Below, piece by piece: positions 45,319 through 59,135 of a stretch of DNA of 64,000 bases. Location: the NCBI GenBank assembly GCA_027449865.1, contig DAIDKV010000033.1:1-64000 (forward strand), written 5' to 3'. The stretch is from Planctomycetales bacterium. GTDB lineage: Bacteria; Planctomycetota; Planctomycetia; Isosphaerales; Isosphaeraceae. The notes beneath the pieces are model-generated. The model had not been told where the DNA came from, searched no databases, and was given only the letters and a program-made list of their open reading frames with translations. The translations under genes were made by a program, and so were the position numbers. Within the stretch, counting starts at the first letter, position 1; each line of letters opens with the position of its first letter.

Positions 45319-45462
45319 TCAGCCCCCCCTGCCCTCGATGGCCATCCTCAATCTGCCGAGACGCCGCACCGTGTCGATGAAGACATCCGTGGAGGTCGAT
45401 CGAAGATGCTCCTCGCGCGACCGCGGCTTCCCGGCATCCGGCCCCTGGGTGGACTTGACCAC

Positions 45463-47751
45463 TCAGGGGAACGTCGAGTAGATCACGATATTCCCCGCGA
45501 TGCGAACCGCGCTTTCATACGTGTATCCCTTGCAGTCAATCCCCGAGTGCCTTTCGAGGGCACAGCCGAGGTCGAGCCTGGAGTAGATCACGGCCCAGTG
45601 TCCGTTGATCTTCACGCCTTCGAGTTGCGGGAAGCCCTTCCCTCCGCCCGCCGCCTTGGTGTACTGCGACTGGCTCAGGTCGAAGCCCGATTGGGCGGTG
45701 TACAGTTCGTCGTCGCGCGGGATCGCTTCGAGCTTGTGATTGGGAAGCAGTTCGGTGACGAACCGGCGAAACGCCGCGTCAAACGCCGGGCTCCCGCAGG
45801 CCGCGTCGGCGAAAAGCGTCCCGCTGCCCGGGTCAAGATGGCGACGAAGGGCGTCGAGATCCTCCTTCGGAAACGAGAGTCCGCCCCGCCCGTGGATGTA
45901 GATCAGCGGATAATAGATCAAGTGAGGATCACGCGGAAAGAGATCTTTTTGCGTGAGAACGACGTCGTAACGAAACGGATCCTGTCGGAGTGCGTCCATC
46001 AGGTTGGGGATCGCCTGCGGGGCGATGTTCCAGTCGCCGGCGTGCATCAGCTTGGCGATCCGAAGGGCCCCTCGCCGCGGCGGCGGAGCGTTCCGAAAAT
46101 CGTGAACCTCCCGGGCCGCCAGCTTGTCGGGAGGCAGCTCGCGCCCAGTCGCGTAGTCAACCACGTTCTGCCCGATCATCCGGGACCGAACCACCCCCGT
46201 GTTCGCCGGGCTCCGCTCTGCCTGGTTCCAGTAACACGAAAGGTCACCCGGAGAGTAGATCGCGACGGTCCGGCAGCCGTGCTCAATCCCCCAGAGCGGG
46301 TGGCTCTCGGGCGAGAGCGGAAACCGGGCTCGCCAGACCGGATGCTCCGGCGGCAGCGGGCGAAGCTGGTAATCCGGCGGCGGAAACAGCTCCTCGATCA
46401 GCCGGCGGAAGCCCTGGTCAAACTCCTTCTCACCGCAGCAGGCGTCGGCAAAGAGAAAGCCACCCTGATTCACATACTCGCGAATGTTGCTCCTGGCCGC
46501 CTCGCTGAAGATGGGCACCCGGTGGCCGTTGAAGAAGAGAATCGGAGCCTGGAGCATGTCGGCGACCGTCGCCTGCTCCGGATCAATGATCTGCCAGGTC
46601 AACAGAGTCTTCCAGTCCTTCGAGACAGCGCCCACCAGGTTGCGAACGTCGTCCGGGTCGTTGTTCCAGTCGCCTCCCGATCCATGCCGAAGCTTGTTGA
46701 TCAGCACCGGCGCACGTCCCTTGGCGAGGAACAAAAGCGCGAAGCTCGTCGCAACCAGCTCGTTCTCGTGCGTCGCACCCCGCCAGAATCCGGAGAGCGG
46801 ATTCTGATCGTGAACCAGTTCCTCCGCCCCCTCGCGATACCAGTCGTGCCGGCCGAAGTAGCGAACACCGGCCAGTCGGCCCGCTCGCTCCATTCCATAA
46901 AGATAGTAATACTTCCAGACCTGTCCCTGGCCGAAATTCTGGCCGACCTGAAAGTGCTCGGCGAGCCAGTCGACGCCCCGGGCGAGAGGCGCGTTGAAGG
47001 CACCCTTGCCACAGTCGTGGATGGACTCGCCCTGGAGGAACTCCTGCCCGACGTACCGCCGCGACCCGCTGATGATCAGGCTGGAGATCCCTGCGCAGGT
47101 CATGCTTCCGGTCGCCGGCTGATTTCGGGGCGTGTACGACCAGCCGCCGTCGCGGAACTGAAACCGCTCGAAGTGAGCCCGGGACAGGGCCCAGACAGTC
47201 GGATCGACCTCGATTCCCACCTCGCTCGCCGCATTCAAACCCAGAAGCGCATATTGCGTGTTCGAGTGATCGCCCTGGTGTATCTTGTTCTCCGAATAGG
47301 TCCAGGTTCCCGGCCAGGGGGCTCGGTCGCCGGGCTTGAGCTGCGCCTGCTGGAGCCAGTCGACGTTCGCCAGCATCCGGACCTTGTCGCGGTCGGGCTC
47401 GGCGGCGGCGTAAACCATCGTCTGAAGGCCGATCGCATAGGTGTTCCGAAGTTGCTGCGGACCAAACCCGCGCAGGTACGCCAGCGACTTTTGCACGACC
47501 GGCGCATCGACACGCTCGCCGGCCGTGATCAGGGCAAGCGTGACCAGGCTGGTGGTCCCCGTCTTCATCTGTTCGTCAGCATCGGTCCACGATCCGTCGG
47601 GCTGCTGCTGGTCCTTGAGGAACCTCACCCCCTGCCGGATCGCATTCTCAACCTGCTCACTCGTGACACCGGCCCGGGCAATGGGCCCCAACGTCCCGAC
47701 CGCCAGCATCGCCGCGACGACCGTCGCCAGGATTCCCCTCGGGCGCGACAT
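45463..47751 (-). CDS. Secreted prenyltransferase/squalene-cyclase-like repeat protein with two DUF4159 domains
   Basis: Signal peptide MSRPRGILATVVAAMLAVGTLGPIARA; GVRFLKDQQQPDGSWTD..., FRDGGWSYTPRNQPATGSMTCAG; two DUF4159-like segments (ADMLQAPILFFNGH...NQGGFLFADACCG; RYDVVLTQKDLFPRDPHLIYYPLIYIHGR...GTLFADAACG). Confidence 0.88.
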   Translation of the reverse strand: MSRPRGILATVVAAMLAVGTLGPIARAGVTSEQVENAIRQGVRFLKDQQQPDGSWTDADEQMKTGTTSLVTLALITAGERVDAPVVQKSLAYLRGFGPQQLRNTYAIGLQTMVYAAAEPDRDKVRMLANVDWLQQAQLKPGDRAPWPGTWTYSENKIHQGDHSNTQYALLGLNAASEVGIEVDPTVWALSRAHFERFQFRDGGWSYTPRNQPATGSMTCAGISSLIISGSRRYVGQEFLQGESIHDCGKGAFNAPLARGVDWLAEHFQVGQNFGQGQVWKYYYLYGMERAGRLAGVRYFGRHDWYREGAEELVHDQNPLSGFWRGATHENELVATSFALLFLAKGRAPVLINKLRHGSGGDWNNDPDDVRNLVGAVSKDWKTLLTWQIIDPEQATVADMLQAPILFFNGHRVPIFSEAARSNIREYVNQGGFLFADACCGEKEFDQGFRRLIEELFPPPDYQLRPLPPEHPVWRARFPLSPESHPLWGIEHGCRTVAIYSPGDLSCYWNQAERSPANTGVVRSRMIGQNVVDYATGRELPPDKLAAREVHDFRNAPPPRRGALRIAKLMHAGDWNIAPQAIPNLMDALRQDPFRYDVVLTQKDLFPRDPHLIYYPLIYIHGRGGLSFPKEDLDALRRHLDPGSGTLFADAACGSPAFDAAFRRFVTELLPNHKLEAIPRDDELYTAQSGFDLSQSQYTKAAGGGKGFPQLEGVKINGHWAVIYSRLDLGCALERHSGIDCKGYTYESAVRIAGNIVIYSTFP

Positions 47752-47877
47752 GAACAGGCCCTCACGTCCGGGACTGAAGTGTTTCGAGTTCCTCACCTTG
47801 ATTGTGACGTCTCCGCCGGAGTTTCGGCAAGCGACCAGCGCGCGCCTTTTCGAACCGATCGCAACCACTCGGCCGCC

Positions 47878-49269
47878 TCAACCTCCGATGATGGCCCGGA
47901 GCAGGATCCCGTGAACCTCGGTCATCGCGATCGGGCCAGACCCAGGCGCCTGACCATCGCCGATCAGAATCGCACGGTCATCATGACTTTCGGATCGAAG
48001 CCCGTGGCTCCCTCGAACCAGACCGGCGTCCAGCGGAACCACGTCGAAGAGCGTCCGGAACCCCAGCTTCTTCTGGATAAGCCGGCGGATCGCTCGACCC
48101 TTCGGCCAGGCCAGCTTCGGGTCGAAGAAGAGCTCGCAGGGATCGTAGCCAGGCTTCCGGTGAATGTCCACCGTCCGGGCAAAATCAGGTGCTTCGCGAT
48201 CATCGAGCCAGTACGGATAGGCGAACCAGGCGTCGGAATCCGAGAGAGCCACCAGCTCGCCCGAGCGCGGATGGTCCAGCCCAATCTCAGCCCGCTCCTC
48301 TCCCGCCAGCACCCGGGCGACACCAGGCGTCGCGACAAGCAGCGATCGAGCCTCGTCACGGTCCCTGGGATCTTTACAATAAATGTGCGCCACTTGATGA
48401 TCGCAAACCGCGAAAGCCCGACTGCCAAATGTGTCGAGCACCTCGCCGAAGGGCCCAGACCGCGCCAGGACCAACCCCGCGCTTCGGAGAATCCGATTCA
48501 GATAGATCGGTCGATTCACATCCACATGCCCATACTCGCTAACGACCCACGCCCGGGCGCCCGCCTCACGCGCGGCGTCGAGCAGAGGAGCGCAGGCGTC
48601 GTCCAGCTCGCCGACGAGCCGGGTCATCTCCGCTCCCGAGGGACCCAAGCGTTGCGGGTCGTAGTCGAGGTGGGGAAGATAAACAAGCGTGAGGTCAGGC
48701 CGCTCCGATCGAATGACCTCCGCCGAGGCTCTCGCGATCCAGTCGGTGCAAGGCAGCCCGGCACTCGGTCCCCAGAAGGTGTGGAACGGGAACCGGCCGA
48801 GCCTCGATTCCAGGCGATCGCAAAGGCCGTCGGGCGTTCCCGCGATCCCAAACACCTTGTTCCCGTCAGCACCATAATAAGGTTTTGGCGTGATACTAAT
48901 GTCGACATCCGCACCCTGGTTAAACCACCAGAACAGCTTGGCGGCGCGGAACGACTGGCCTCTCTCGGCGGCCAATCGCCGGGCGGTCGTGTAGAGCGGC
49001 TCGGCCTGGATCAGCGCGCTGGACTGCTGCCAGAATCGAACCTCGCCCGTCTCCCGGAACAGCCAGCCATTGCCGACGATCCCGTGCCCCCGCGGTGGAA
49101 GTCCGGTGAGGATGCTCGCCTGCGCCGTGCAGGTGACGGCCGGAACAACCTCCTCCAGCGTTCGCATCCATCCCGAATGCGCGAGAGCATTGAGCCGAGG
49201 TGCGTGGGGCAGCAGCCTCGGCGTCAACCCAACGGCGTTGATCAATACAATTGGAGCTTGTTGAGTCAT
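47878..49269 (-). CDS. Alkaline phosphatase family / nucleotide pyrophosphatase-phosphodiesterase-like protein
   Basis: PIVLINAVGLTPRLLPHAPRLNAL...EEVVPAVTCTAQASILTGLPPRGHGIVGNGWLFRE; LTLVYLPHLDYDPQRLGP; VVSEYGHVDVNRPIYLNRILR. Confidence 0.9.
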   Translation of the reverse strand: MTQQAPIVLINAVGLTPRLLPHAPRLNALAHSGWMRTLEEVVPAVTCTAQASILTGLPPRGHGIVGNGWLFRETGEVRFWQQSSALIQAEPLYTTARRLAAERGQSFRAAKLFWWFNQGADVDISITPKPYYGADGNKVFGIAGTPDGLCDRLESRLGRFPFHTFWGPSAGLPCTDWIARASAEVIRSERPDLTLVYLPHLDYDPQRLGPSGAEMTRLVGELDDACAPLLDAAREAGARAWVVSEYGHVDVNRPIYLNRILRSAGLVLARSGPFGEVLDTFGSRAFAVCDHQVAHIYCKDPRDRDEARSLLVATPGVARVLAGEERAEIGLDHPRSGELVALSDSDAWFAYPYWLDDREAPDFARTVDIHRKPGYDPCELFFDPKLAWPKGRAIRRLIQKKLGFRTLFDVVPLDAGLVRGSHGLRSESHDDRAILIGDGQAPGSGPIAMTEVHGILLRAIIGG

Positions 49270-49284
49270 TCGTCGATCGCCCGA

Positions 49285-51927
49285 TCAGAACATCGGGCGA
49301 TAGCCGAGGAATCGACGCCAGGCTGCTCCCACAGGGAAAGCCAGCATCCCGAAGACGATCAGCCCCATCGCCCCCTGCGACCCGCCCTCCACGAAGCCGT
49401 ACGAGTGCAGGCCGACTCCCAGCAGGAAGTTGACTCCATACCAGGCCATCACCACGGAGAGGAAGCAGAAGACCGACGCGAACACAAGCCAGAATGTATT
49501 GACCCACCCGGCGAATCGGCCATGGAGCGGAATCAGGTAAACCAGCAGCGTGATCAGGGCCCAGACCTCCTTCGGGTCCCAGCCCCAGAACCGGCCCCAC
49601 GAGTAATCGGCCCAGACTCCGCCGAGGATCGTCCCGGCCGCGATCAGAAGGACACCGACCTGCATCGTCCGATAGATGAAGGTGGAGAGGGGCTTGATCC
49701 GCGAAGCCGTGCGCTGCATGGCCTCGCCCCGGGCGTCGAGCTTGATCCGGTTGGCGGTCTCCAGCGCCCGGATCTCCGCGACGGTCGGCTTCACGCCAGC
49801 CGGGCGAGTGGGCGACAGGTGCGATGTCGGCAGGTCGGCGTGGGCGTCTTCCTGGGTATCGCCTCGGAAGGCAGCCCGGCCGATCAGCTCGCCCGCAATC
49901 GCGAGGACGGCGGCCAGCGTCAACGCCTCGCCGAACAAACCCATAATCGCAAAAGCATAAAAGAGCGCATTCGACATCATCCAGTCGGAGCCGAAGCGGC
50001 CGTCGGCCGCGGCGGCGCCCGCGGCACCCGAGGTCATCAGGATCAGGCCCGGCACCATCGGCAGCACCAGTTCGCCGAGCTTAGGCGTTCTCCGATAGGT
50101 CGCGGTCAGGTAGTGGACCGTCGCGATCAGACCGAGCATCCAGGCCAGGGCGAAGGCCGCATAGCTGGAGACCTCCGTCAACACATGAATCGTCAACCAG
50201 AGGTTGCTTCGGAGAACGGGTTGAAGCCCCTTGATGCTTGGGTCGAGCAGCGGAACGTTTGCCGCGGTGATCGTCCCGAGCATCGCGACCGCCGCTCCCG
50301 AGAGGCCCATGTAGACCTGCCGATAGATCAGCTCGAAGACCAGCGAGAGCACGGCGGCGACCAGGGCGACCCAGATCACCGTCTCGTACATGTTGGTCAC
50401 GGGCGCCCAGCCCGAGATCCGGATGCGGAGAAAGAAGCCGTAGATCTCGGTCGCGATCCCGGTGGCGAGGCCCGCCATCCCCAGCCAGTACGTCCCCTTG
50501 CCAGCCTTGTGGACCCACGAACCCGCCGACGTTGTCGACAGCATCGCCAGACTCAGGACCAGGAACAGAAGCCCCGCACCGTAGTCAAAGGGAGCGAGCC
50601 AGAACGGGTTGATCGCATTGAAGCTTGTCTCACGCTCGATTCGTGCAACCGTCGGGTAGCTCTTCGAGGCGGCTTCACCCAGCGAACGGGCCGAGTTCAA
50701 AAAGCCCTCGGCGGCGCCTGGGTCGGCGTGCCCGGGCGCGTCGAGTTCGGCCCGCTCCAGTTTCCGATACGCGTCGAGAAAGCCGCGGACGAGGTCGTCG
50801 CGATAACCGGCCGAGGCCAGAACCTCGGGCTTCTCCTTCAGGATCGTCTTGAGCGGAACCCAGGTCGAGCTATCGCGGAGCCAGTCCGAGAACTTCTCGT
50901 CGGCCTTTGCGTCCTCGCCTGGGGTCTTGTGGTCGTCGCGAGGGATCAGGTTCCAGTAAGTGTCGAGCGCCTTGAGGGCGTCGAGCTGCATCGGCGAGAG
51001 GCCCTCGATGCTCTCCTTGCCACGGACGACCTTGATCGTCTCCGCCGTGAAGGCAAGGTAATGCGCGTCGATGGGTCGGGGCTCGATCAGGATCACGCCG
51101 GCCGTCGACATCCGGTCGCCGCTGTAGGCGGTGTAGGTCATCAGCCGTCGAGCGGCCTCGACCCCGCGCCGCTCGAGCTCGCTCGGTCGATCGGCCGAGT
51201 GGGGATCTTCCTCGAAGCGCTCGATCTTGTCGCCGGTGGTGGAGGCCCATTCCATGAAGGGCATGGGTGTCCCGCGCGGGCCGATGATCGTGGCCTCGCG
51301 CAGCTCACGGGGAGCGAGCCACTTGTGCTCCTCGGTCAGCTTGGCGGCGAGCTCGGCAAGGCTTTCGCGGTCCTCGGCCGGCAGCTTCGAGCCGCGGAGA
51401 TACATCGAGAGCGCCGAGGCCGTCGGCTCGGGGTCGGCGGCGATCATCCGAAGGCTCGACTTCTCACCCTCTGGCGTGCTGGACTTCGCCGCGATCGCCC
51501 CGGCCCGGGTCGAGAGCGTTCCAGCCACCAGGGCGCGGCGAAGCGGCAGGTAATCGACCAGGAGAAACGGCTGCTCATCCCAGTATTCGGGCTGAACCGT
51601 CCAGCCGAGGAAGGCGCCCACCGGGCCCCACTTCTGGATCTTCTCCTCGCCGCCCGTCGCATTCGAGGAGCCGAGGATCTTCGCGACCTCGTCGCGCGGG
51701 TCACGGAGTTTGATGGTCTCCCGGCCGAAGATCTGCTTGACCTCCTCACGGGCGACGGTGTCAAACGGCTTGATCCGCCCCTGGTGCATCACGGGAATCT
51801 CGCCGATCCGCTCATAAGCGCGGCCGACGCCCAGCGTCTCGGCGGTCTCGTCGGCGCGGGCGGCCAGGCCCGTCGCCATCGCGAGGGACAGGGCCAGGCG
51901 GCTGATCGGAGTGGCAAAGCGTCGCAT
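49285..51927 (-). CDS. ccsA: Cytochrome c biogenesis protein CcsA/ResC (System II) with large N-terminal extracytoplasmic domain
   Basis: Signal peptide MRRFATPISRLALSLAMATGLAARA; C-terminal multi-TM with WWD-type motif WADYSWGRFWGWDPKEVWALITLLVYLIPLHGRFAGWVN. Confidence 0.93.
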   Translation of the reverse strand: MRRFATPISRLALSLAMATGLAARADETAETLGVGRAYERIGEIPVMHQGRIKPFDTVAREEVKQIFGRETIKLRDPRDEVAKILGSSNATGGEEKIQKWGPVGAFLGWTVQPEYWDEQPFLLVDYLPLRRALVAGTLSTRAGAIAAKSSTPEGEKSSLRMIAADPEPTASALSMYLRGSKLPAEDRESLAELAAKLTEEHKWLAPRELREATIIGPRGTPMPFMEWASTTGDKIERFEEDPHSADRPSELERRGVEAARRLMTYTAYSGDRMSTAGVILIEPRPIDAHYLAFTAETIKVVRGKESIEGLSPMQLDALKALDTYWNLIPRDDHKTPGEDAKADEKFSDWLRDSSTWVPLKTILKEKPEVLASAGYRDDLVRGFLDAYRKLERAELDAPGHADPGAAEGFLNSARSLGEAASKSYPTVARIERETSFNAINPFWLAPFDYGAGLLFLVLSLAMLSTTSAGSWVHKAGKGTYWLGMAGLATGIATEIYGFFLRIRISGWAPVTNMYETVIWVALVAAVLSLVFELIYRQVYMGLSGAAVAMLGTITAANVPLLDPSIKGLQPVLRSNLWLTIHVLTEVSSYAAFALAWMLGLIATVHYLTATYRRTPKLGELVLPMVPGLILMTSGAAGAAAADGRFGSDWMMSNALFYAFAIMGLFGEALTLAAVLAIAGELIGRAAFRGDTQEDAHADLPTSHLSPTRPAGVKPTVAEIRALETANRIKLDARGEAMQRTASRIKPLSTFIYRTMQVGVLLIAAGTILGGVWADYSWGRFWGWDPKEVWALITLLVYLIPLHGRFAGWVNTFWLVFASVFCFLSVVMAWYGVNFLLGVGLHSYGFVEGGSQGAMGLIVFGMLAFPVGAAWRRFLGYRPMF

Positions 51928-51975
51928 CGGCAATCCTCCAGGGGCCCCTTCGGCCGCCACTGGTCCTCTTCGGGA

Positions 51976-54108
51976 TCAGAGCTGTTCGGCCTTCTCGTCC
52001 GGCTTGCGGGAAGTCTCGACGACCTCGGTGGCCGAGCGGGCCGAGGCCCGCTCACGCTCCTTCTTGCCGCCGTCGGTAAACACTCCCGCTCTCATGTAAA
52101 ATTGAACAAACGTGCCTACCACTACGAGCAGACAACCCAGGTAGATGATCGGACGCCCGGGGTTGGTGGCGACCTGAAAGACCGACTGGAACCGGCCCGT
52201 CGATCGGCCTGTCTGGGGGTCGACATCGGGCTGGTATCGCATCTGGTAAAAGGTGTAGCCGTTGTGATCCATCGGGTGATTCATCTCGATGAGGTGTTCC
52301 TCATCGTGAAGACCGGCGACCTTGTCGGTCAGCAGGACCTTGCTCTCGAACTTCGTCGGCTGCGGGGTCCCCGGCTCGAAGCCGACTTCAAAGTCCTTGA
52401 GTTTCAGCTCGAAGCCCAGCGGCTTGCGGTCGGCGTCAAAGGCCAACGCGTAGGGGCCGCCCTTGAAGGTGACGAACTCGGGCCTCGGCTGGTCGAGCCC
52501 CGTCGAGCGGCGGAGCCAGACCTCCTTCGTCTCCTCGCCCACGGTCATCTCGACCCGACAGGCGGCGATCCCCTGGTCCATCTTGCCGGCGGGCAGCTCG
52601 ACCGGCACGCAGACCTCTCGCTCCGCGCCCGAGGGCAAATACTCAGGAACGGCGAAGCTGATCGTCATCGGCATGTTGGGCGTCCCACCAAAGGCGACAA
52701 TCGGTTCGCCCTTCTTCAGCGGCCCAGCCGCCCTCAACTCGCCGAGCCCCCCCTCCTTCGCACGGCCAAAGATCCGGTAATACAGCCTCTGATCGGGCCC
52801 GGCCAGCACATCGATCTCGCCGAACCGGCCGTTCGTCTTCGGGTCGATCGACGGTCGGACGATGTAATGGATCAAGGCCAGGGGAGCCGGCGGCTTTGCA
52901 TCCTTCTCGCTCGGCGGGATCACGTTCGGCATCCGGGGCAGGTTCGCCATCGCCATGTGCGTGACCTCCTCGGCCTTCCCCTTCCGAATCTTGAAAACCG
53001 CGAGAGGGACAGGATCGGGCCCCATCACCCGGTCGAGCCCGCGCTCCTGGGTCGGGAAGTCCAGAATCTCGGCGAGCGTCACGGAGAGATCGCTCTCCGG
53101 CAGGGTGGTGGTCTTGCCCACCTGCCCGTCGAGCGGCCAGTCGTGAACGCGGGGCTTGCCGGCCAGATCCTCGTATCGAAACCGGGCAACGCCCCGGGGT
53201 CCGTTCCCGGCCGGCGGTTCGAGGAAGTCCTTGACCAGATCGGGATGATCGACGGCCGAAAAGCTCACCAACGCCGGCGCTGCCCGCATCGGCTCCCGAA
53301 CCGCCTTGAAAAAGCGGGAGTCCGTGAGGAACCATTGACTCTCGTCATTGGGAAAGGCGTCGCGAGCCTCGGGCATGCCCGGGGCCTTGAACAGAACCCG
53401 TATCCGGGCCATCGGCGTCCCGTTCGCCGACTCAACGTGCTCGGTCGCCGGCATCGATGCCGCGAGAAATTCCTTCGCCACGATCCGGAACGGGTCGTCG
53501 GCCCTCGTCAAAACCTCGTCCGTCGAGTTCCACGAAAGCCCTGGCACGAACGCCTTGAGCCGGCCGACCAGCCCCGACGGTCTCGGATGTCCTGGGCCCC
53601 ACGAGAACGAGCCTGGCAAGAACGGCACCACATATTCACGGGTGAACTGCTGCGTGTGCGGGTCGACCTGCCAGACCCGGAGGACCGGGTGATCCATCCG
53701 CACCAGCTCGCTCCGAACGTCGCCCTCCAGCATCCCGACCTGTCCCTCGTCGGAGGTCCGGACACTGTAGTAAGAACCGATCAAAATGGTGATCAGCCCG
53801 GCATGCGTAATGACAAAACCCGTCTGACGCTTCTTCCAGGGAAATCGTATCAAAGCAGCGCAGAGGATGTTGATCCCGAGAAATGCGAGCAAAATGGCGA
53901 AGCCGGGCCCTCGGTAGATGTATTCATTGACGGCCGCGGTGCCATACCACTTCTCGAAGAAGGTGGCATAGGCGAGCGTCCCCGCGAGTGCGGAGAGCGT
54001 GAGAACCGCCAGCTTCAACGAGGCGAGAAACCGATAGATCACGTCGAAATCATGGCCGATTCGATCGGTGATCGAGGGCGGAGAATTCTTCTTGACGGCA
54101 GTGGCCAT
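51976..54108 (-). CDS. resB: Cytochrome c biogenesis protein ResB/Ccs1 (System II)
   Basis: FLASLKLAVLTLSALAGTLAYATFFEKWYGTAAVNEYIYRGPGFAILLAFLGINILCAALIRFPWKKRQTGFVITHAGLITILIGSYYSVRTSDEGQVGMLEGD...; C-terminal NHPMDHNGYTFYQMRYQPD. Confidence 0.93.
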   Translation of the reverse strand: MATAVKKNSPPSITDRIGHDFDVIYRFLASLKLAVLTLSALAGTLAYATFFEKWYGTAAVNEYIYRGPGFAILLAFLGINILCAALIRFPWKKRQTGFVITHAGLITILIGSYYSVRTSDEGQVGMLEGDVRSELVRMDHPVLRVWQVDPHTQQFTREYVVPFLPGSFSWGPGHPRPSGLVGRLKAFVPGLSWNSTDEVLTRADDPFRIVAKEFLAASMPATEHVESANGTPMARIRVLFKAPGMPEARDAFPNDESQWFLTDSRFFKAVREPMRAAPALVSFSAVDHPDLVKDFLEPPAGNGPRGVARFRYEDLAGKPRVHDWPLDGQVGKTTTLPESDLSVTLAEILDFPTQERGLDRVMGPDPVPLAVFKIRKGKAEEVTHMAMANLPRMPNVIPPSEKDAKPPAPLALIHYIVRPSIDPKTNGRFGEIDVLAGPDQRLYYRIFGRAKEGGLGELRAAGPLKKGEPIVAFGGTPNMPMTISFAVPEYLPSGAEREVCVPVELPAGKMDQGIAACRVEMTVGEETKEVWLRRSTGLDQPRPEFVTFKGGPYALAFDADRKPLGFELKLKDFEVGFEPGTPQPTKFESKVLLTDKVAGLHDEEHLIEMNHPMDHNGYTFYQMRYQPDVDPQTGRSTGRFQSVFQVATNPGRPIIYLGCLLVVVGTFVQFYMRAGVFTDGGKKERERASARSATEVVETSRKPDEKAEQL

Positions 54109-54240
54109 GGAATCGCACCTACCCGGGGGCGAGGAGTACACAAGGGAGGAGACGGCGGCGGGATGAATCGATCTACCCGGCATCGTGTCGATCGTCGCTG
54201 GCATTTTAGTCGGAGGCCCTCGATCGGGCCAGATCCTCGA

Positions 54241-55512
54241 TCAAACCGACGCGGCGATCGGCCCGGCGCGCGGTCCTCGAGGTCGATCATCGGCCTCATC
54301 TCTCGGCAGATACGAACGATGCAACCCGCAAGGCCCCGCCTCCTGAATCATGACGACGGCACCGTTACCTTTGTTCGATCCGATCGGCGGCTGGTGATGG
54401 GATTCGCCCGCGAGCAAGACCGGTCGAACGGTCATCGCATCCTGGCGAATGCCTCGCCTCGGCGCCTCGGAACGGCGGCGCACCGGGCGCCACAAAACCC
54501 CAACTCTCGTGGGTTCTGCCTCCTTTCGGAAGGCGGAGTGACATCGAACGCAACTGGCGTCCAGCCGTCGGGCGGCGGCGAGCATCGAGGGAGAATCCGA
54601 GAGGTCGCAGGCCCGCTCCAGGTCAGCCGCAGCCTCCGACATCTCGTGGGCGAGCCGGTCCCAGAGCGGTCCCGAGCCGTCCGTCTGAGCACCGTGAATC
54701 CGACGACCAGCCTCCGCCGCCGCCCGGGCAGCGGGCCTCAGCTTCTCAACATCCGGATTCGCCATCTCACCTCTCGCGACCGCGGCGAGAACCGAACCGT
54801 AACCGACCACTCCGTCCTTCCCATCACCAAGGGCCGACATGATCGTCCGAACCTTCGAGGGCGACTCAAATCGATCGAAACCCAGCCGAATCGTCGTCGC
54901 GATCGCGACCAGCCCGATCAAACCGATCGCAACGCCCCGAATCGTCAGCCGATCGCGGAGCATCGACCGGGCCCGGTCCAGCCGCCTCGACATCGAACCG
55001 GCCGGCCACCCCAGCCGACGCGCGGCCTCCTCCCTCGTCTGCCCCTCCAGGTCGCAGAGAACCACCGGCGCCCGATACTTCTCGGGAAGCTGCCGCAACG
55101 CCTCGTCGATCGCCGTCCGAAGATCCCGACGGTCCACCTCGAACGATGGCTCCACGCGCGGATGATACCGCTCAGGCAATTGCCCGTCGAACTGACCGGG
55201 GAGGGTGGAGACCGGGGTCTCCCGGGCACGTCGGCGGGCCGTTCCCGATCGGGCGTGCAGGGCAAGCCGTCGAGCGACGTCGTCGATCCAGGGGATCACG
55301 GATTCGCTCCAGTCGATCCCGCCGGCCTTGCGGGCGAGAACCAGGAACGTGGCCTGGCGGACGTCCTCGATCTCGTGTTCGTCCCGGAGGATGCGTCGAC
55401 AGATCCGCTCGACCCGGGGACCGTGCCGGCGGACCAGGGCCGCAAACGCCGCCTCTTCGCGAGCGTGGACGAACCGATCCAGCAAGGCCGCGTCACTCGG
55501 GGTCTCGACCAT
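54241..55512 (-). CDS. ECF sigma factor fused to a TM helix and a C-terminal CxxCH (cytochrome c'-like) domain
   Basis: Sigma: MVETPSDAALLDRFVHAREEAAFAALVRRHGPRVERICRRILRDEHEIEDVRQATFLVLARKAG...LRQLPEKYRAPVVLCDLEGQTREEAARRLGWPAGSMSRRLDRARSMLRDRL; TM: GVAIGLIGLVAIATTIRLGF; heme motif: AARRLDASCVRCHSAFRKE. Start ATG at 55512 (internal to ORF 54241..55872). Confidence 0.85.
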   Translation of the reverse strand: MVETPSDAALLDRFVHAREEAAFAALVRRHGPRVERICRRILRDEHEIEDVRQATFLVLARKAGGIDWSESVIPWIDDVARRLALHARSGTARRRARETPVSTLPGQFDGQLPERYHPRVEPSFEVDRRDLRTAIDEALRQLPEKYRAPVVLCDLEGQTREEAARRLGWPAGSMSRRLDRARSMLRDRLTIRGVAIGLIGLVAIATTIRLGFDRFESPSKVRTIMSALGDGKDGVVGYGSVLAAVARGEMANPDVEKLRPAARAAAEAGRRIHGAQTDGSGPLWDRLAHEMSEAAADLERACDLSDSPSMLAAARRLDASCVRCHSAFRKEAEPTRVGVLWRPVRRRSEAPRRGIRQDAMTVRPVLLAGESHHQPPIGSNKGNGAVVMIQEAGPCGLHRSYLPRDEADDRPRGPRAGPIAASV

Positions 55513-55677
55513 GGAACAAGGGCTCCTTCGGGGGCGTCTGGCCGCCTCCTCTATTTGATAATGCCGGGGACCCTCACCGCCAGATGCATTTTTCCTTCGA
55601 ATTTCGAGAACTCGACAAAAACCCGCCAACACTACCCCACCTTCCTGCCGTTGACTCCAACATCGAGGAGCGATAGC

Positions 55678-57660
55678 GTGGATGCCATTCGGATTCGATT
55701 GGTGACGAAGCGAGAAACCAGGATGTGTTGGAAGTCGAGGCGGATTCGAGCCTGGATTCTTCTGGTCGGCGTCTTCGGATCGGCTGTGGGTGGTGTTCGG
55801 GGCGACGACCTGCCGGACCGCTACCGGCGTGAGGTCCTGCCGATTCTCAACCGGGCCTGTGTGGGATGTCACGGCGAATCGAAGCGGGAAGGTGGCCTGA
55901 GCCTTCTCGGGCCCGACGACCCTGCCCTGGCGGTGGCCCGGCGCGGGGTCTGGAAGCGGGTTCGGGATCGTGTCGAGGAGGGCGAGATGCCGCCCGACGA
56001 CGCGGAGACGCCCCTCCTCGATTCTGACCGGAAGACCTTACTCGCCTGGATCTCTGATGCGATGGCCGCCAGAATCGCTCGATCGGTCCGCGACCCTGGG
56101 CCGTCGGTCCTCCGGCGACTGACCCGTGGCGAATACGTCCGGACCGTCGGTGACCTCCTCTCCATCGAGAAGGGTGACCTCGAACGGCTCGACCTACCGG
56201 AGGACGACCCAGGCGACCACTTCGAGAACCTCGGTGCCTCGCTCAGCCTGGCACCAACGACCCTGGAGCGCTACTTCGACGCCGCGGATCGAGTCGCGGC
56301 GATGGTCTTCGGCAACGGCTGGTACGCCAGGGGTTCGCGAGATCGATTGATGCCGGTCCGACCGGCGCCGAACCGTCCGGAGCGCGAGGCGGCCCGTGCC
56401 TCACTGGCGAGGTTCCTCCGCCGCGCCCATCGACGTCCACCCGATCCGACCGAGATCGACCGGCTCCTCATCTTCTTCGATCGAGAGAAGGCGCGAGGCG
56501 CGCCGTTTGAAGAGGCGATGCGAGCCCTCCTCAAACCCATCCTGATCTCGCCCCGGTTCCTCTTCCGGATTGAGCAGGATCGGCCGGCCCTGGACGGATC
56601 GCGGTCCGTCACCGTGGACGACGACGAACTGGCCGCCCGGCTCTCCTACTTCCTCTGGGGAACGATGCCCGACGAGACCCTCAACCAGCTTGCCGACCGC
56701 GGCAAGTTGACCTCGGATCCCGCCGCGCTGGAGGCCGAGGTCCGGCGGATGCTCGGTGACAACAGGGCTCAAACCCTCTCGAAGGTCTTCGCCGCGCAGT
56801 GGGTCCAGCTTGATAGAATGCGGACGGCCCGTCCCTCACAGGAGTTCTTTCCCCGGTTCCACGCTGGGATCAAGCAGGCGATGGTCGAGGAAGTCTGGGC
56901 GTTCTTCGATCACCTGCGAGTCGACGACAGACCCGTCACTGAAATCATCGACTGCAATTATGCTTTCGCGAATGAGGAACTGGCCCGGTATTACGGAATC
57001 AAGGGGATTTCCGGCGGGAAAATGCAAAAGGTCGCTATCGGCCCCTCGGACCATCGCGGTGGGCTGCTGGGCATGGGGGCGGTACTGGCCTCGACCTCGC
57101 ACACGTTCCGAACCAGCCCCACCCTGCGGGGGAAATATGTGCTGGAGGTGTTGCTCGGAACGCCTCCGCCGCCCCCTCCGGCAAATGTGGGCCTCCTCAA
57201 GGACGACGCCCCGCTGGGCAAGGGCCGCGAGGTGACCACCTTTCGGGAGAAGATGGCCCAGCATGCGAGCTCTGCCTCGTGCGCCGGTTGTCATCGCAAG
57301 ATCGATCCCATCGGCTTCGCCCTGGAGAATTACGACGCGGCCGGTGCCTGGCGCGAATCGACCCGAGACCGGCCGCTCGATCTTTCGGGCGTTCTACCAA
57401 CAGGCGAGCGGATCGAGGGGATCGATGGGCTGAAGCGCGTTCTGAAGGCTCGACGCGACCAGGTCGTCGAGAACCTCGTGGCACGGATGCTGGAATATGC
57501 CCTGGGCCGGAAGCTGACCGACGAGGATGAGCCGACGGTCCGCGAAATCCGAGAAATGTCGGCACGTTCCGAGTATCGGTATTCGTCGATCGTACTGGAA
57601 GTTGTCCGGAGCGTGCCATTCCAATGTCGGCGGCCCACGGGTCGGGAGGTCGTCCAATGA
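55678..57660 (+). CDS. DUF1592/DUF1588/DUF1587-type planctomycete cytochrome (PSCyt1-like) protein
   Basis: GTG 55678 with upstream GAGGAG; signal segment IRAWILLVGVFGSAVGGVRG; LPILNRACVGCHGESKREGGLSLLG (CxxCH); LRRLTRGEYVRTVGDLL; LKPILISPRFLFRIEQD; CAGCHRKIDPIGFALENYDAAGAWR. It is the in-frame C-terminal part of the artefactual 4084-aa ORF. Confidence 0.93.
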   Translation: MDAIRIRLVTKRETRMCWKSRRIRAWILLVGVFGSAVGGVRGDDLPDRYRREVLPILNRACVGCHGESKREGGLSLLGPDDPALAVARRGVWKRVRDRVEEGEMPPDDAETPLLDSDRKTLLAWISDAMAARIARSVRDPGPSVLRRLTRGEYVRTVGDLLSIEKGDLERLDLPEDDPGDHFENLGASLSLAPTTLERYFDAADRVAAMVFGNGWYARGSRDRLMPVRPAPNRPEREAARASLARFLRRAHRRPPDPTEIDRLLIFFDREKARGAPFEEAMRALLKPILISPRFLFRIEQDRPALDGSRSVTVDDDELAARLSYFLWGTMPDETLNQLADRGKLTSDPAALEAEVRRMLGDNRAQTLSKVFAAQWVQLDRMRTARPSQEFFPRFHAGIKQAMVEEVWAFFDHLRVDDRPVTEIIDCNYAFANEELARYYGIKGISGGKMQKVAIGPSDHRGGLLGMGAVLASTSHTFRTSPTLRGKYVLEVLLGTPPPPPPANVGLLKDDAPLGKGREVTTFREKMAQHASSASCAGCHRKIDPIGFALENYDAAGAWRESTRDRPLDLSGVLPTGERIEGIDGLKRVLKARRDQVVENLVARMLEYALGRKLTDEDEPTVREIREMSARSEYRYSSIVLEVVRSVPFQCRRPTGREVVQ

Positions 57661-59135
57661 GCGATCGCAATCGGTTCGGGGACGGGTCGGGTAGGATGAC
57701 TCGCAGGGCGATGCTCCGGGGAGCGGGGGTTGCGGTCGCGCTACCCTTCCTGGAGTCCTGGGTCCGTCCCTTCGCGCGGGCGGCCGGCGGGATCGCCGGG
57801 CCTCCACTGCGGATGGCCATCGTCACCGTGACGGGCGGAACAGTGCTGGAATCATGGAAGTTGCCTGGGGGCGGACCACTCGGCAAACTCCCCTCGATCC
57901 TACGCCCTCTCGATTTCGCACGCAACGATCTGTTGATCCTCACCGGGCTCTCGCACACGGGTGCCTCGGATAATCTCAACGGACATGAGAATTGCGGATA
58001 CAAGCATCTAACAGGTGCGGCTCGAGTGGGCAAGATCGGCGGGCGGCCCTACGCTGGGATCTCGGTCGATCAGGCCGCTGCGCGAGTGGCGGGGCGAGAA
58101 ACGTTTCTCCCCTCGATCGAGATGGGCCTGACCAACCACGAGACGCCGTTTTCCTTCCGGTCGGTCGACCAGCCGGCGCCGTTTGAGGCCGACCCTCGAA
58201 TGATCTTCGACCGGATGTTTCGGGGCCGTCAGCCGGTGGTCCCAAACTGGAAGCGACGAGGCGAATCAAGGGATGCCGAGGCTGGGCGTACCTCGCCTCC
58301 GACCGATCCCTACGATAGGAGTGTACTCGACGCCGTCCGTGCCGAGGCCAGGGCCCTCCGCAATCGCCTGGATTCCAGCGACCGCCAGAAACTCGACCAG
58401 TACCTCGACGCCCTCCGCGCTAGCGAGACACGGATCGATCGACTCGAAGCCCGCCTTCGGGTCGAGGCCCTTGACGTCAAGGATCCGGGGCCATCCCGCC
58501 TCGTCGATATCCGGATTCCGTCCGAGATGGGGAAGCCCAGCTTTCACCACTACCGAGAGCTCATCCATCGCGATCCAGAGAAACACGCCGACTACATCCG
58601 GATCATGGCCGACCTCCTGGTCCTGGCCTTGCAGACCGACACCACGCGCGTCGTTACCCTGGCAGCCGGCGCCGACGATGCGTTCTTCCCGGGCGTGGTC
58701 ACCGTCGGCTACGAATATCACTGCCACACCCTCGAGCACCAGGGAAACGCCGACCGCCCCGAGAACGCCGATCCGATCGCCCGCGAAGCATGCCGGCAGA
58801 TCCACGCCTGGTACACGGAATTCTTCGCGGAGATGGTTGCCCGGCTGAAGGCAATCGACGAGGGTGGTTCGACACTCCTCGACAACACGATGCTTCTTTA
58901 CACCTCGTACATGTCCGACGGCGGTCACGGAACGATCGACTACCCAGCCCTCCTCGTCGGGAAGGCCCAGGGCACCCTCCGAACCGGCCGACAGATCGAT
59001 TTCCCGGCGAAGACCCCTATGTCCAACCTGTTCGTCGAGATGCTCGAACGAATGGGCGCCGGCGGCCCCGGCTTCGGCGATAGCCTGACCTCTCCCAACC
59101 GCGCCTTCGAGGGCCGCCTGCCAGGTCTTGCATGA
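57657..59135 (+). CDS. DUF1552 domain protein
   Basis: MTRRAMLRGAGVAVALPFLESW...; LLILTGLSHTGASD...HENCGYKHLTG; ISVDQAAA; YTSYMSDGGHGTIDYPALLVG. ATGA overlap with the upstream stop. Confidence 0.93.
   Translation: MSDRNRFGDGSGRMTRRAMLRGAGVAVALPFLESWVRPFARAAGGIAGPPLRMAIVTVTGGTVLESWKLPGGGPLGKLPSILRPLDFARNDLLILTGLSHTGASDNLNGHENCGYKHLTGAARVGKIGGRPYAGISVDQAAARVAGRETFLPSIEMGLTNHETPFSFRSVDQPAPFEADPRMIFDRMFRGRQPVVPNWKRRGESRDAEAGRTSPPTDPYDRSVLDAVRAEARALRNRLDSSDRQKLDQYLDALRASETRIDRLEARLRVEALDVKDPGPSRLVDIRIPSEMGKPSFHHYRELIHRDPEKHADYIRIMADLLVLALQTDTTRVVTLAAGADDAFFPGVVTVGYEYHCHTLEHQGNADRPENADPIAREACRQIHAWYTEFFAEMVARLKAIDEGGSTLLDNTMLLYTSYMSDGGHGTIDYPALLVGKAQGTLRTGRQIDFPAKTPMSNLFVEMLERMGAGGPGFGDSLTSPNRAFEGRLPGLA

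Follow-up and report, generated by a model that had tools for sequence, protein, structure and literature searches.

An ECF57-like sigma factor fused to a predicted cytochrome c′-type domain beside resB-ccsA in Planctomycetes: a candidate one-protein transmembrane sensor

The window, that is the whole 64,000-nucleotide stretch analysed here (contig DAIDKV010000033.1 of a Planctomycetales bacterium in the family Isosphaeraceae), carries on its minus strand a gene joining an ECF sigma factor, a predicted membrane helix and a c-type cytochrome-like domain in one chain, immediately upstream of System II cytochrome c biogenesis genes. The gene is contained in an open frame at 54241-55872 of the window ORF list, and its true start appears to be the conserved ATG at 55512: this is where the alignment of the orthologues begins, and about 45 nt before it stands a conserved promoter-like motif. 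The features of the locus are:

49285..51960, minus strand: ccsA/ccsB, System II cytochrome c synthase/heme exporter (Pfam Cytochrom_C_asm, E 1e-28)
51976..54204, minus strand: resB, System II cytochrome c biogenesis (Pfam ResB, E 3.3e-19)
54241..55512, minus strand: sigma-TM-cytochrome ORF, 423 aa from ATG 55512 (orthologue alignment and upstream motif)
54241..54525, minus strand: lineage-specific C-terminal extension beyond the ancestral stop (alignment, dN/dS, orthologue stops)
54526..54876, minus strand: predicted class II (cytochrome c′-like) c-type heme domain, residues 213-329 (Pfam Cytochrom_C_2, AlphaFold2, Foldseek)
54538..54552, minus strand: CxxCH (CVRCH) candidate heme attachment motif, residues 321-325, invariant in fused and stand-alone relatives
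54877..54933, minus strand: predicted single transmembrane (TM) helix, residues 194-212 (hydropathy and flanking charges, 18 orthologues)
54943..55512, minus strand: ECF sigma regions 2 and 4, residues 1-190, ECF57-like, with invariant Cys38 and Cys153 (Pfam, TIGR02937)
55559..55587, minus strand: bipartite promoter-like motif GCATCT-N17-GCATTA, kept upstream of orthologues

Residues 1-190 match Sigma70_r2 (E 1.2e-8) and Sigma70_r4_2 (E 3.6e-13), both over the Pfam cut-off, and the sigma part of the window protein scores 72.6 bits against TIGR02937 (cut-off 42.9); regions 2 and 4 are present without regions 1.1 and 3, as in ECF sigma factors. This is the most constrained part of the chain, with a dN/dS of 0.10-0.12 between the window and the nearest species, and residues within both regions are conserved across orthologues. 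Two cysteines, one in sigma2 and one in sigma4 (Cys38 and Cys153), are invariant in 18 of 18 orthologues, and a simple pattern recovers the pair in 11 of the 18 planctomycete paralogues tested. Because such a pair has been described for ECF57 and occurs in the fused sigmas and in many paralogues, the sigma factor is here termed ECF57-like, a label that refers to the Cys pair and not to the ECF57 group model. CxxCH was absent from the C-terminal extensions of the planctomycete ECF paralogues examined, which were compared as individual fetched loci. The fused sigma domains form one clade in the tree (support 0.90), with the copy of genome G291 as its outermost branch, so that a single fusion event is the simplest reading.

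Sigma region 4 passes nearly straight into the TM helix (residues 186-194), and between sigma and TM neither a match to an anti-sigma family nor the Hx3CxxC motif was found that would indicate an anti-sigma or ZAS domain. Hydropathy and flanking charges give the helix a positive-inside, N-in pattern in 18 of 18 orthologues, which predicts a cytoplasmic N-terminus and a heme domain outside the membrane, the topology that the preliminary description of this DNA had thought consistent with the order of the domains.

Whole genomes of the family and class were searched, and 17 of the 45 from the family carry the same sigma-TM-CxxCH fusion; an eighteenth family genome (G063) holds a copy partly masked by N, and one carrier, G291, lies outside the family. 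When 95 genomes of the G291 family and 392 genomes of the phylum were searched with a model, no further full-length fusions came up, though just a few candidates per genome were scored and absence from this search is not proof. Several copies lie on contigs of 7-10 Mb, which argues that the fusion is not an assembly artefact. Both cysteines and the histidine of CxxCH are invariant in all 18 intact orthologues, whilst the domain is otherwise 24-36% identical to that of the window (two nearest species excepted), which excludes a CxxCH arising by chance. A dN/dS of about 0.2 between the window and the nearest species indicates purifying selection on the heme domain; only its CxxCH half stands out as conserved, the N-terminal half (the distal heme side) being poorly conserved. 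In none of these homologues does the sigma ORF end before the TM helix, and the combination of sigma regions 2 and 4, a hydrophobic helix and CxxCH with the following xxFR in one ORF, first noted in the preliminary description, is borne out by the Pfam matches and by the 18 orthologues. The order sigma, TM helix and class II c-type cytochrome domain, predicted to be N-in/C-out, is thus well supported.

The chain of most orthologues stops about one codon past CHxxFR, and this stop has been lost in five genomes of two genera, that of the window included, where reading continues for 90-110 residues. This tail has few conserved positions and a dN/dS of 0.5-0.6 against the nearest relatives of the window, and no gap or frameshift was seen in it between near relatives. 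Of the two origins proposed earlier for the apparently non-conserved last ~90 residues, read-through beyond an ancestral stop is upheld by the orthologue stops, and a frameshift was not seen. The tail is probably a lineage-specific, weakly constrained extension that forms no part of the device.

Comparison of the C-terminal domain with Pfam Cytochrom_C_2 (PF01322), suggested earlier as a check, gave 23.8 bits for the window, below the gathering cut-off of 26.5 (E about 1e-4), whilst 10 of 13 orthologue domains (best E 9.2e-7) and 36 of the 42 sequences in a wider alignment matched the family. An AlphaFold2 model of the domain, built from 42 fused and stand-alone sequences (pLDDT 85.5, pTM 0.80), predicts a four-helix bundle (helices 26-34, 43-60, 69-91 and 95-116, plus a short one at 6-14) in which CxxCH, residues 109-113 of the 117-residue domain, lies within the C-terminal helix. 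Foldseek matches of this model in the PDB were nearly all cytochromes c′, NO- and CO-bound forms among them (TM-score 0.6-0.7; E 0.02, a weak value of the kind usual for short all-helical domains), with the Kuenenia cytochromes Kusta0087/0088 among the top hits and cytochrome b562 designs as further matches. The predicted fold thus matches that of cytochromes c′, and the outcome that the preliminary description had named as telling against its proposal, a fold with no heme pocket, did not occur. A full-length model (pLDDT 68) matched both ECF sigma structures and cytochromes c′ and, having been built from fused sequences alone, gives a cytochrome c′ match independent of the stand-alone relatives. 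When PDB sequences were searched with nothing but the domain profile, designed helical bundles made up most of the hits, with cytochromes b562 and c′ at weak E-values; this search was not used as main evidence. We infer from alignment and model that the domain is of cytochrome c′ type and a candidate carrier of covalent heme. Planctomycetes commonly have stand-alone relatives that carry a signal-like segment at the N-terminus; CxxCH is invariant in 24 stand-alone relatives as well, and such secreted proteins are the likely source of the fused domain. Members of this stand-alone family (loci L061, L062, L065, L068, L069 and L070) share the pattern PPKG..SW.KL...LDKAAQAKD...SC.ACH, and the domain is sometimes doubled within one protein (L068).

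The ccsA/ccsB product also matches TIGR03144 (E 5e-42; 144 bits, under the cut-off of 187.6), and the real start of resB is probably at MATAVKKN, 132 nt past the sigma stop. The sigma gene stands immediately upstream of resB on the same strand in 16 of the 18 fusion-carrying family genomes, and in every carrier whose contig reaches far enough resB is followed by ccsA. G013 and G030 have the fusion away from resB, and in G291 one ORF separates it from a ResB-type gene. That spacer ORF (L107:2153-3223, minus strand) encodes a lipoprotein-like product of 356 aa, and the C-terminal part of the ResB-type gene resembles the CcsA N-terminal region. Of the 27 family genomes without the fusion, 26 keep resB, so the fusion is not required for having the synthase. 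A side-by-side case is offered by G010 (L088), which has the same resB and the same isomerase-like upstream gene as the same-genus G027 and G036 (L040, L042), with no sigma-cytochrome gene between. The gap from sigma to the likely resB start measures 78-261 nt and contains a conserved -10-like box of resB itself (TAGAAT/TAAAAT), so that resB need not depend on the fused sigma; co-transcription of the two genes is possible.

On the opposite side, at 55711-59135 on the plus strand, lies a divergent pair consisting of a planctomycete cytochrome (PSCyt1, PSCyt3, DUF1592/1587/1595/1585) and then a DUF1552 protein; among the species compared, this pair adjoins the locus in the nearest species only. 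A plus-strand ORF of 4084 aa (45406-57660) was rejected as a gene; it is a high-GC open frame on the strand opposite to the sigma gene, resB and ccsA, its 3′ end merges into the real DUF1592-type gene, and it is a useful warning for ORF callers.

The promoter-like motif has a single match in the window (chance expectation 0.20). Its general form, GCATYY-N16/17-RCATNA, occurs upstream of the fusion gene in 17 of 19 genomes, G291 included, about 35-48 nt before the start and in surrounding DNA that is not conserved; in G027 and G036 it was read by eye with a spacer of 17, and G013 and G030 have a degenerate second box. The strict form GCATTC-N16/17-RCATAAT has one site per genome, at the fusion gene, in six of the seven whole genomes scanned, and the seventh (G032) has one extra match, which lies inside ORFs and was dropped. 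The motif was absent upstream of the 15 readable ECF paralogues, and a broader regulon comprising gas or stress genes did not emerge from the strict scan of the seven genomes. A looser pattern is too unspecific for defining a regulon; the reversed-pattern control is not composition-matched. The motif has the look expected of a promoter private to this gene and recognised by its own sigma factor, though another regulator may act on it, and the sigma gene may thus be positively autoregulated.

The preliminary description had proposed sensing of redox state, heme or a gas, coupled to the tethering or release of a sigma factor, and the locus is suggestive of a device of this general kind. We think it somewhat better than an even bet that the protein is a one-piece transmembrane sensor in which a tethered ECF57-like sigma is governed by a heme domain in the periplasm, probably reporting the state of cytochrome c maturation or of heme. 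What the sequences themselves show is the fusion, its conservation, the predicted fold match, the linkage to resB-ccsA and the specific upstream motif; from these we infer the topology, heme attachment, signal, release and autoregulation. The ECF57-like sigma would be held at the inner face of the membrane by its one helix, with the cytochrome c′-type domain on the outer face, where CxxCH would receive heme from the ResB-CcsA synthase encoded next door. The state of the domain, apo or holo, or the redox or ligand state of its heme, would then determine whether the sigma domain is able to act, most likely through stability or cleavage near the TM helix, as in other sigmas fused to their own anchor; a proteolytic release step is suggested by analogy with IutY and ECF52 (PMC8999054). 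An active sigma would transcribe its own gene, with transcription reading through into the ccs genes, and so adjust cytochrome c maturation. Only tentatively do we go as far as a closed loop, in which the apo domain frees or activates the sigma at a promoter for its own gene alone, with the synthase reached by read-through; if true, one molecule would report failed periplasmic heme attachment to RNA polymerase.

Other accounts of the locus start from the chain itself. The idea that two distinct genes, one for a sigma and one for a cytochrome, had been spuriously joined by frameshift or read-through gains something from the tail, which really does run past an ancestral stop, but the sigma-TM-cytochrome junction is in frame in the 18 intact orthologues, including those on 7-10 Mb contigs; these refute an artefact at the junction, which we consider practically impossible, and the doubt stays with the tail. 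The protein could instead be a membrane-anchored cytochrome whose sigma part is a relic and no longer a working transcription factor, given that Planctomycetes have very many ECF paralogues, some of which may be drifting. We hold this to be very improbable, since it is the sigma part that is under the strongest constraint, with its region 2 and 4 residues conserved and a gene-specific promoter-like motif kept upstream. Scarcely more credible is a domain that binds metal or acts as a thiol switch, with CxxCH a coincidence of motif: zinc- or thiol-sensing ECF factors whose extensions are rich in Cys are known (CorE, ZAS domains; PMC8999054) and the Pfam match of the window is sub-threshold, but homology and fold both lead to secreted cytochromes c′, the Hx3CxxC motif of ZAS domains is missing from the sequence, and the gene is linked to those for System II heme ligation.

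The alternative that deserves most weight accepts the heme and changes the signal. The domain might sense a gas (NO, CO or O2) or redox conditions, the ccs genes lying nearby since the domain needs them to mature. Cytochromes c′ are established binders of NO and CO, and the fold matches include such complexes; against this, no distal-pocket residue is seen to be conserved and the strict motif scan gave no gas or stress regulon, and we regard gas or redox sensing as rather unlikely, if well worth keeping in mind. Three observations moderately favour sensing of maturation or heme state over it: only the CxxCH half is conserved, the gene is linked to the ccs genes, which the preliminary description does not mention, and strict motif sites are otherwise lacking. 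Should the maturation-sensing reading be true, it would show how a bacterium monitors periplasmic heme attachment and would make this a question directly testable in cultivable relatives.

Normally, separate anti-sigma factors and proteases couple a sigma factor to extramembrane events. In this protein the sensor is seemingly part of the sigma chain itself and a c-type cytochrome, so that cells may be using a sigma factor to sense directly the state of heme or cytochrome outside the membrane. No published description of a sigma-cytochrome fusion was found in the literature searched, which covered few subscription papers; on that basis a c-type cytochrome as a sigma extension appears to be new, membrane-anchored ECF extensions being already known. 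The locus also offers a defined system, apparently with a single promoter, in which to study planctomycete ECF factors that bear C-terminal extensions and are poorly understood.

The closest comparison is with the ECF57 sigmas of Planctomycetes, which have a representative from Singulisphaera acidiphila and share regions 2 and 4 with a C-terminal extension, the cysteines in sigma2 and sigma4 and the planctomycete expansion; their extensions, however, are described as having a prevalence of WD40-like repeats for protein contact, in place of the one TM helix and cytochrome c′-type domain seen here (PMC8999054). IutY of Pseudomonas putida (ECF243), activated by regulated proteolysis, likewise has a membrane-anchored extension at the ECF C-terminus, but that extension is the fused anti-sigma of a cell-surface signalling system, whereas the present fusion has no anti-sigma and a putative heme domain as sensor (PMC8999054). 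SCO4117 of Streptomyces coelicolor (ECF52) is likewise a single chain made up of an ECF sigma, a TM helix and an extracytoplasmic domain that resembles a sensor, and differs in its zinc-finger anti-sigma part, TM helix, proline-rich region and carbohydrate-binding domain, with no cytochrome (PMC8999054, PMC5826349). CorE and CorE2 of Myxococcus xanthus (ECF238) resemble it in sensing redox or metal chemistry by cysteines in a C-terminal ECF extension, but are cytoplasmic, respond directly to Cu or Cd/Zn and have neither a TM helix nor a heme motif (PMC8999054). From the other side, the class II cytochromes c (PF01322; Kusta0087/0088 of Kuenenia) share the helical bundle, as predicted here, and a CxxCH near the C-terminus followed by FR, whereas their known members are soluble, electron-transfer or gas-binding proteins without a sigma fusion.
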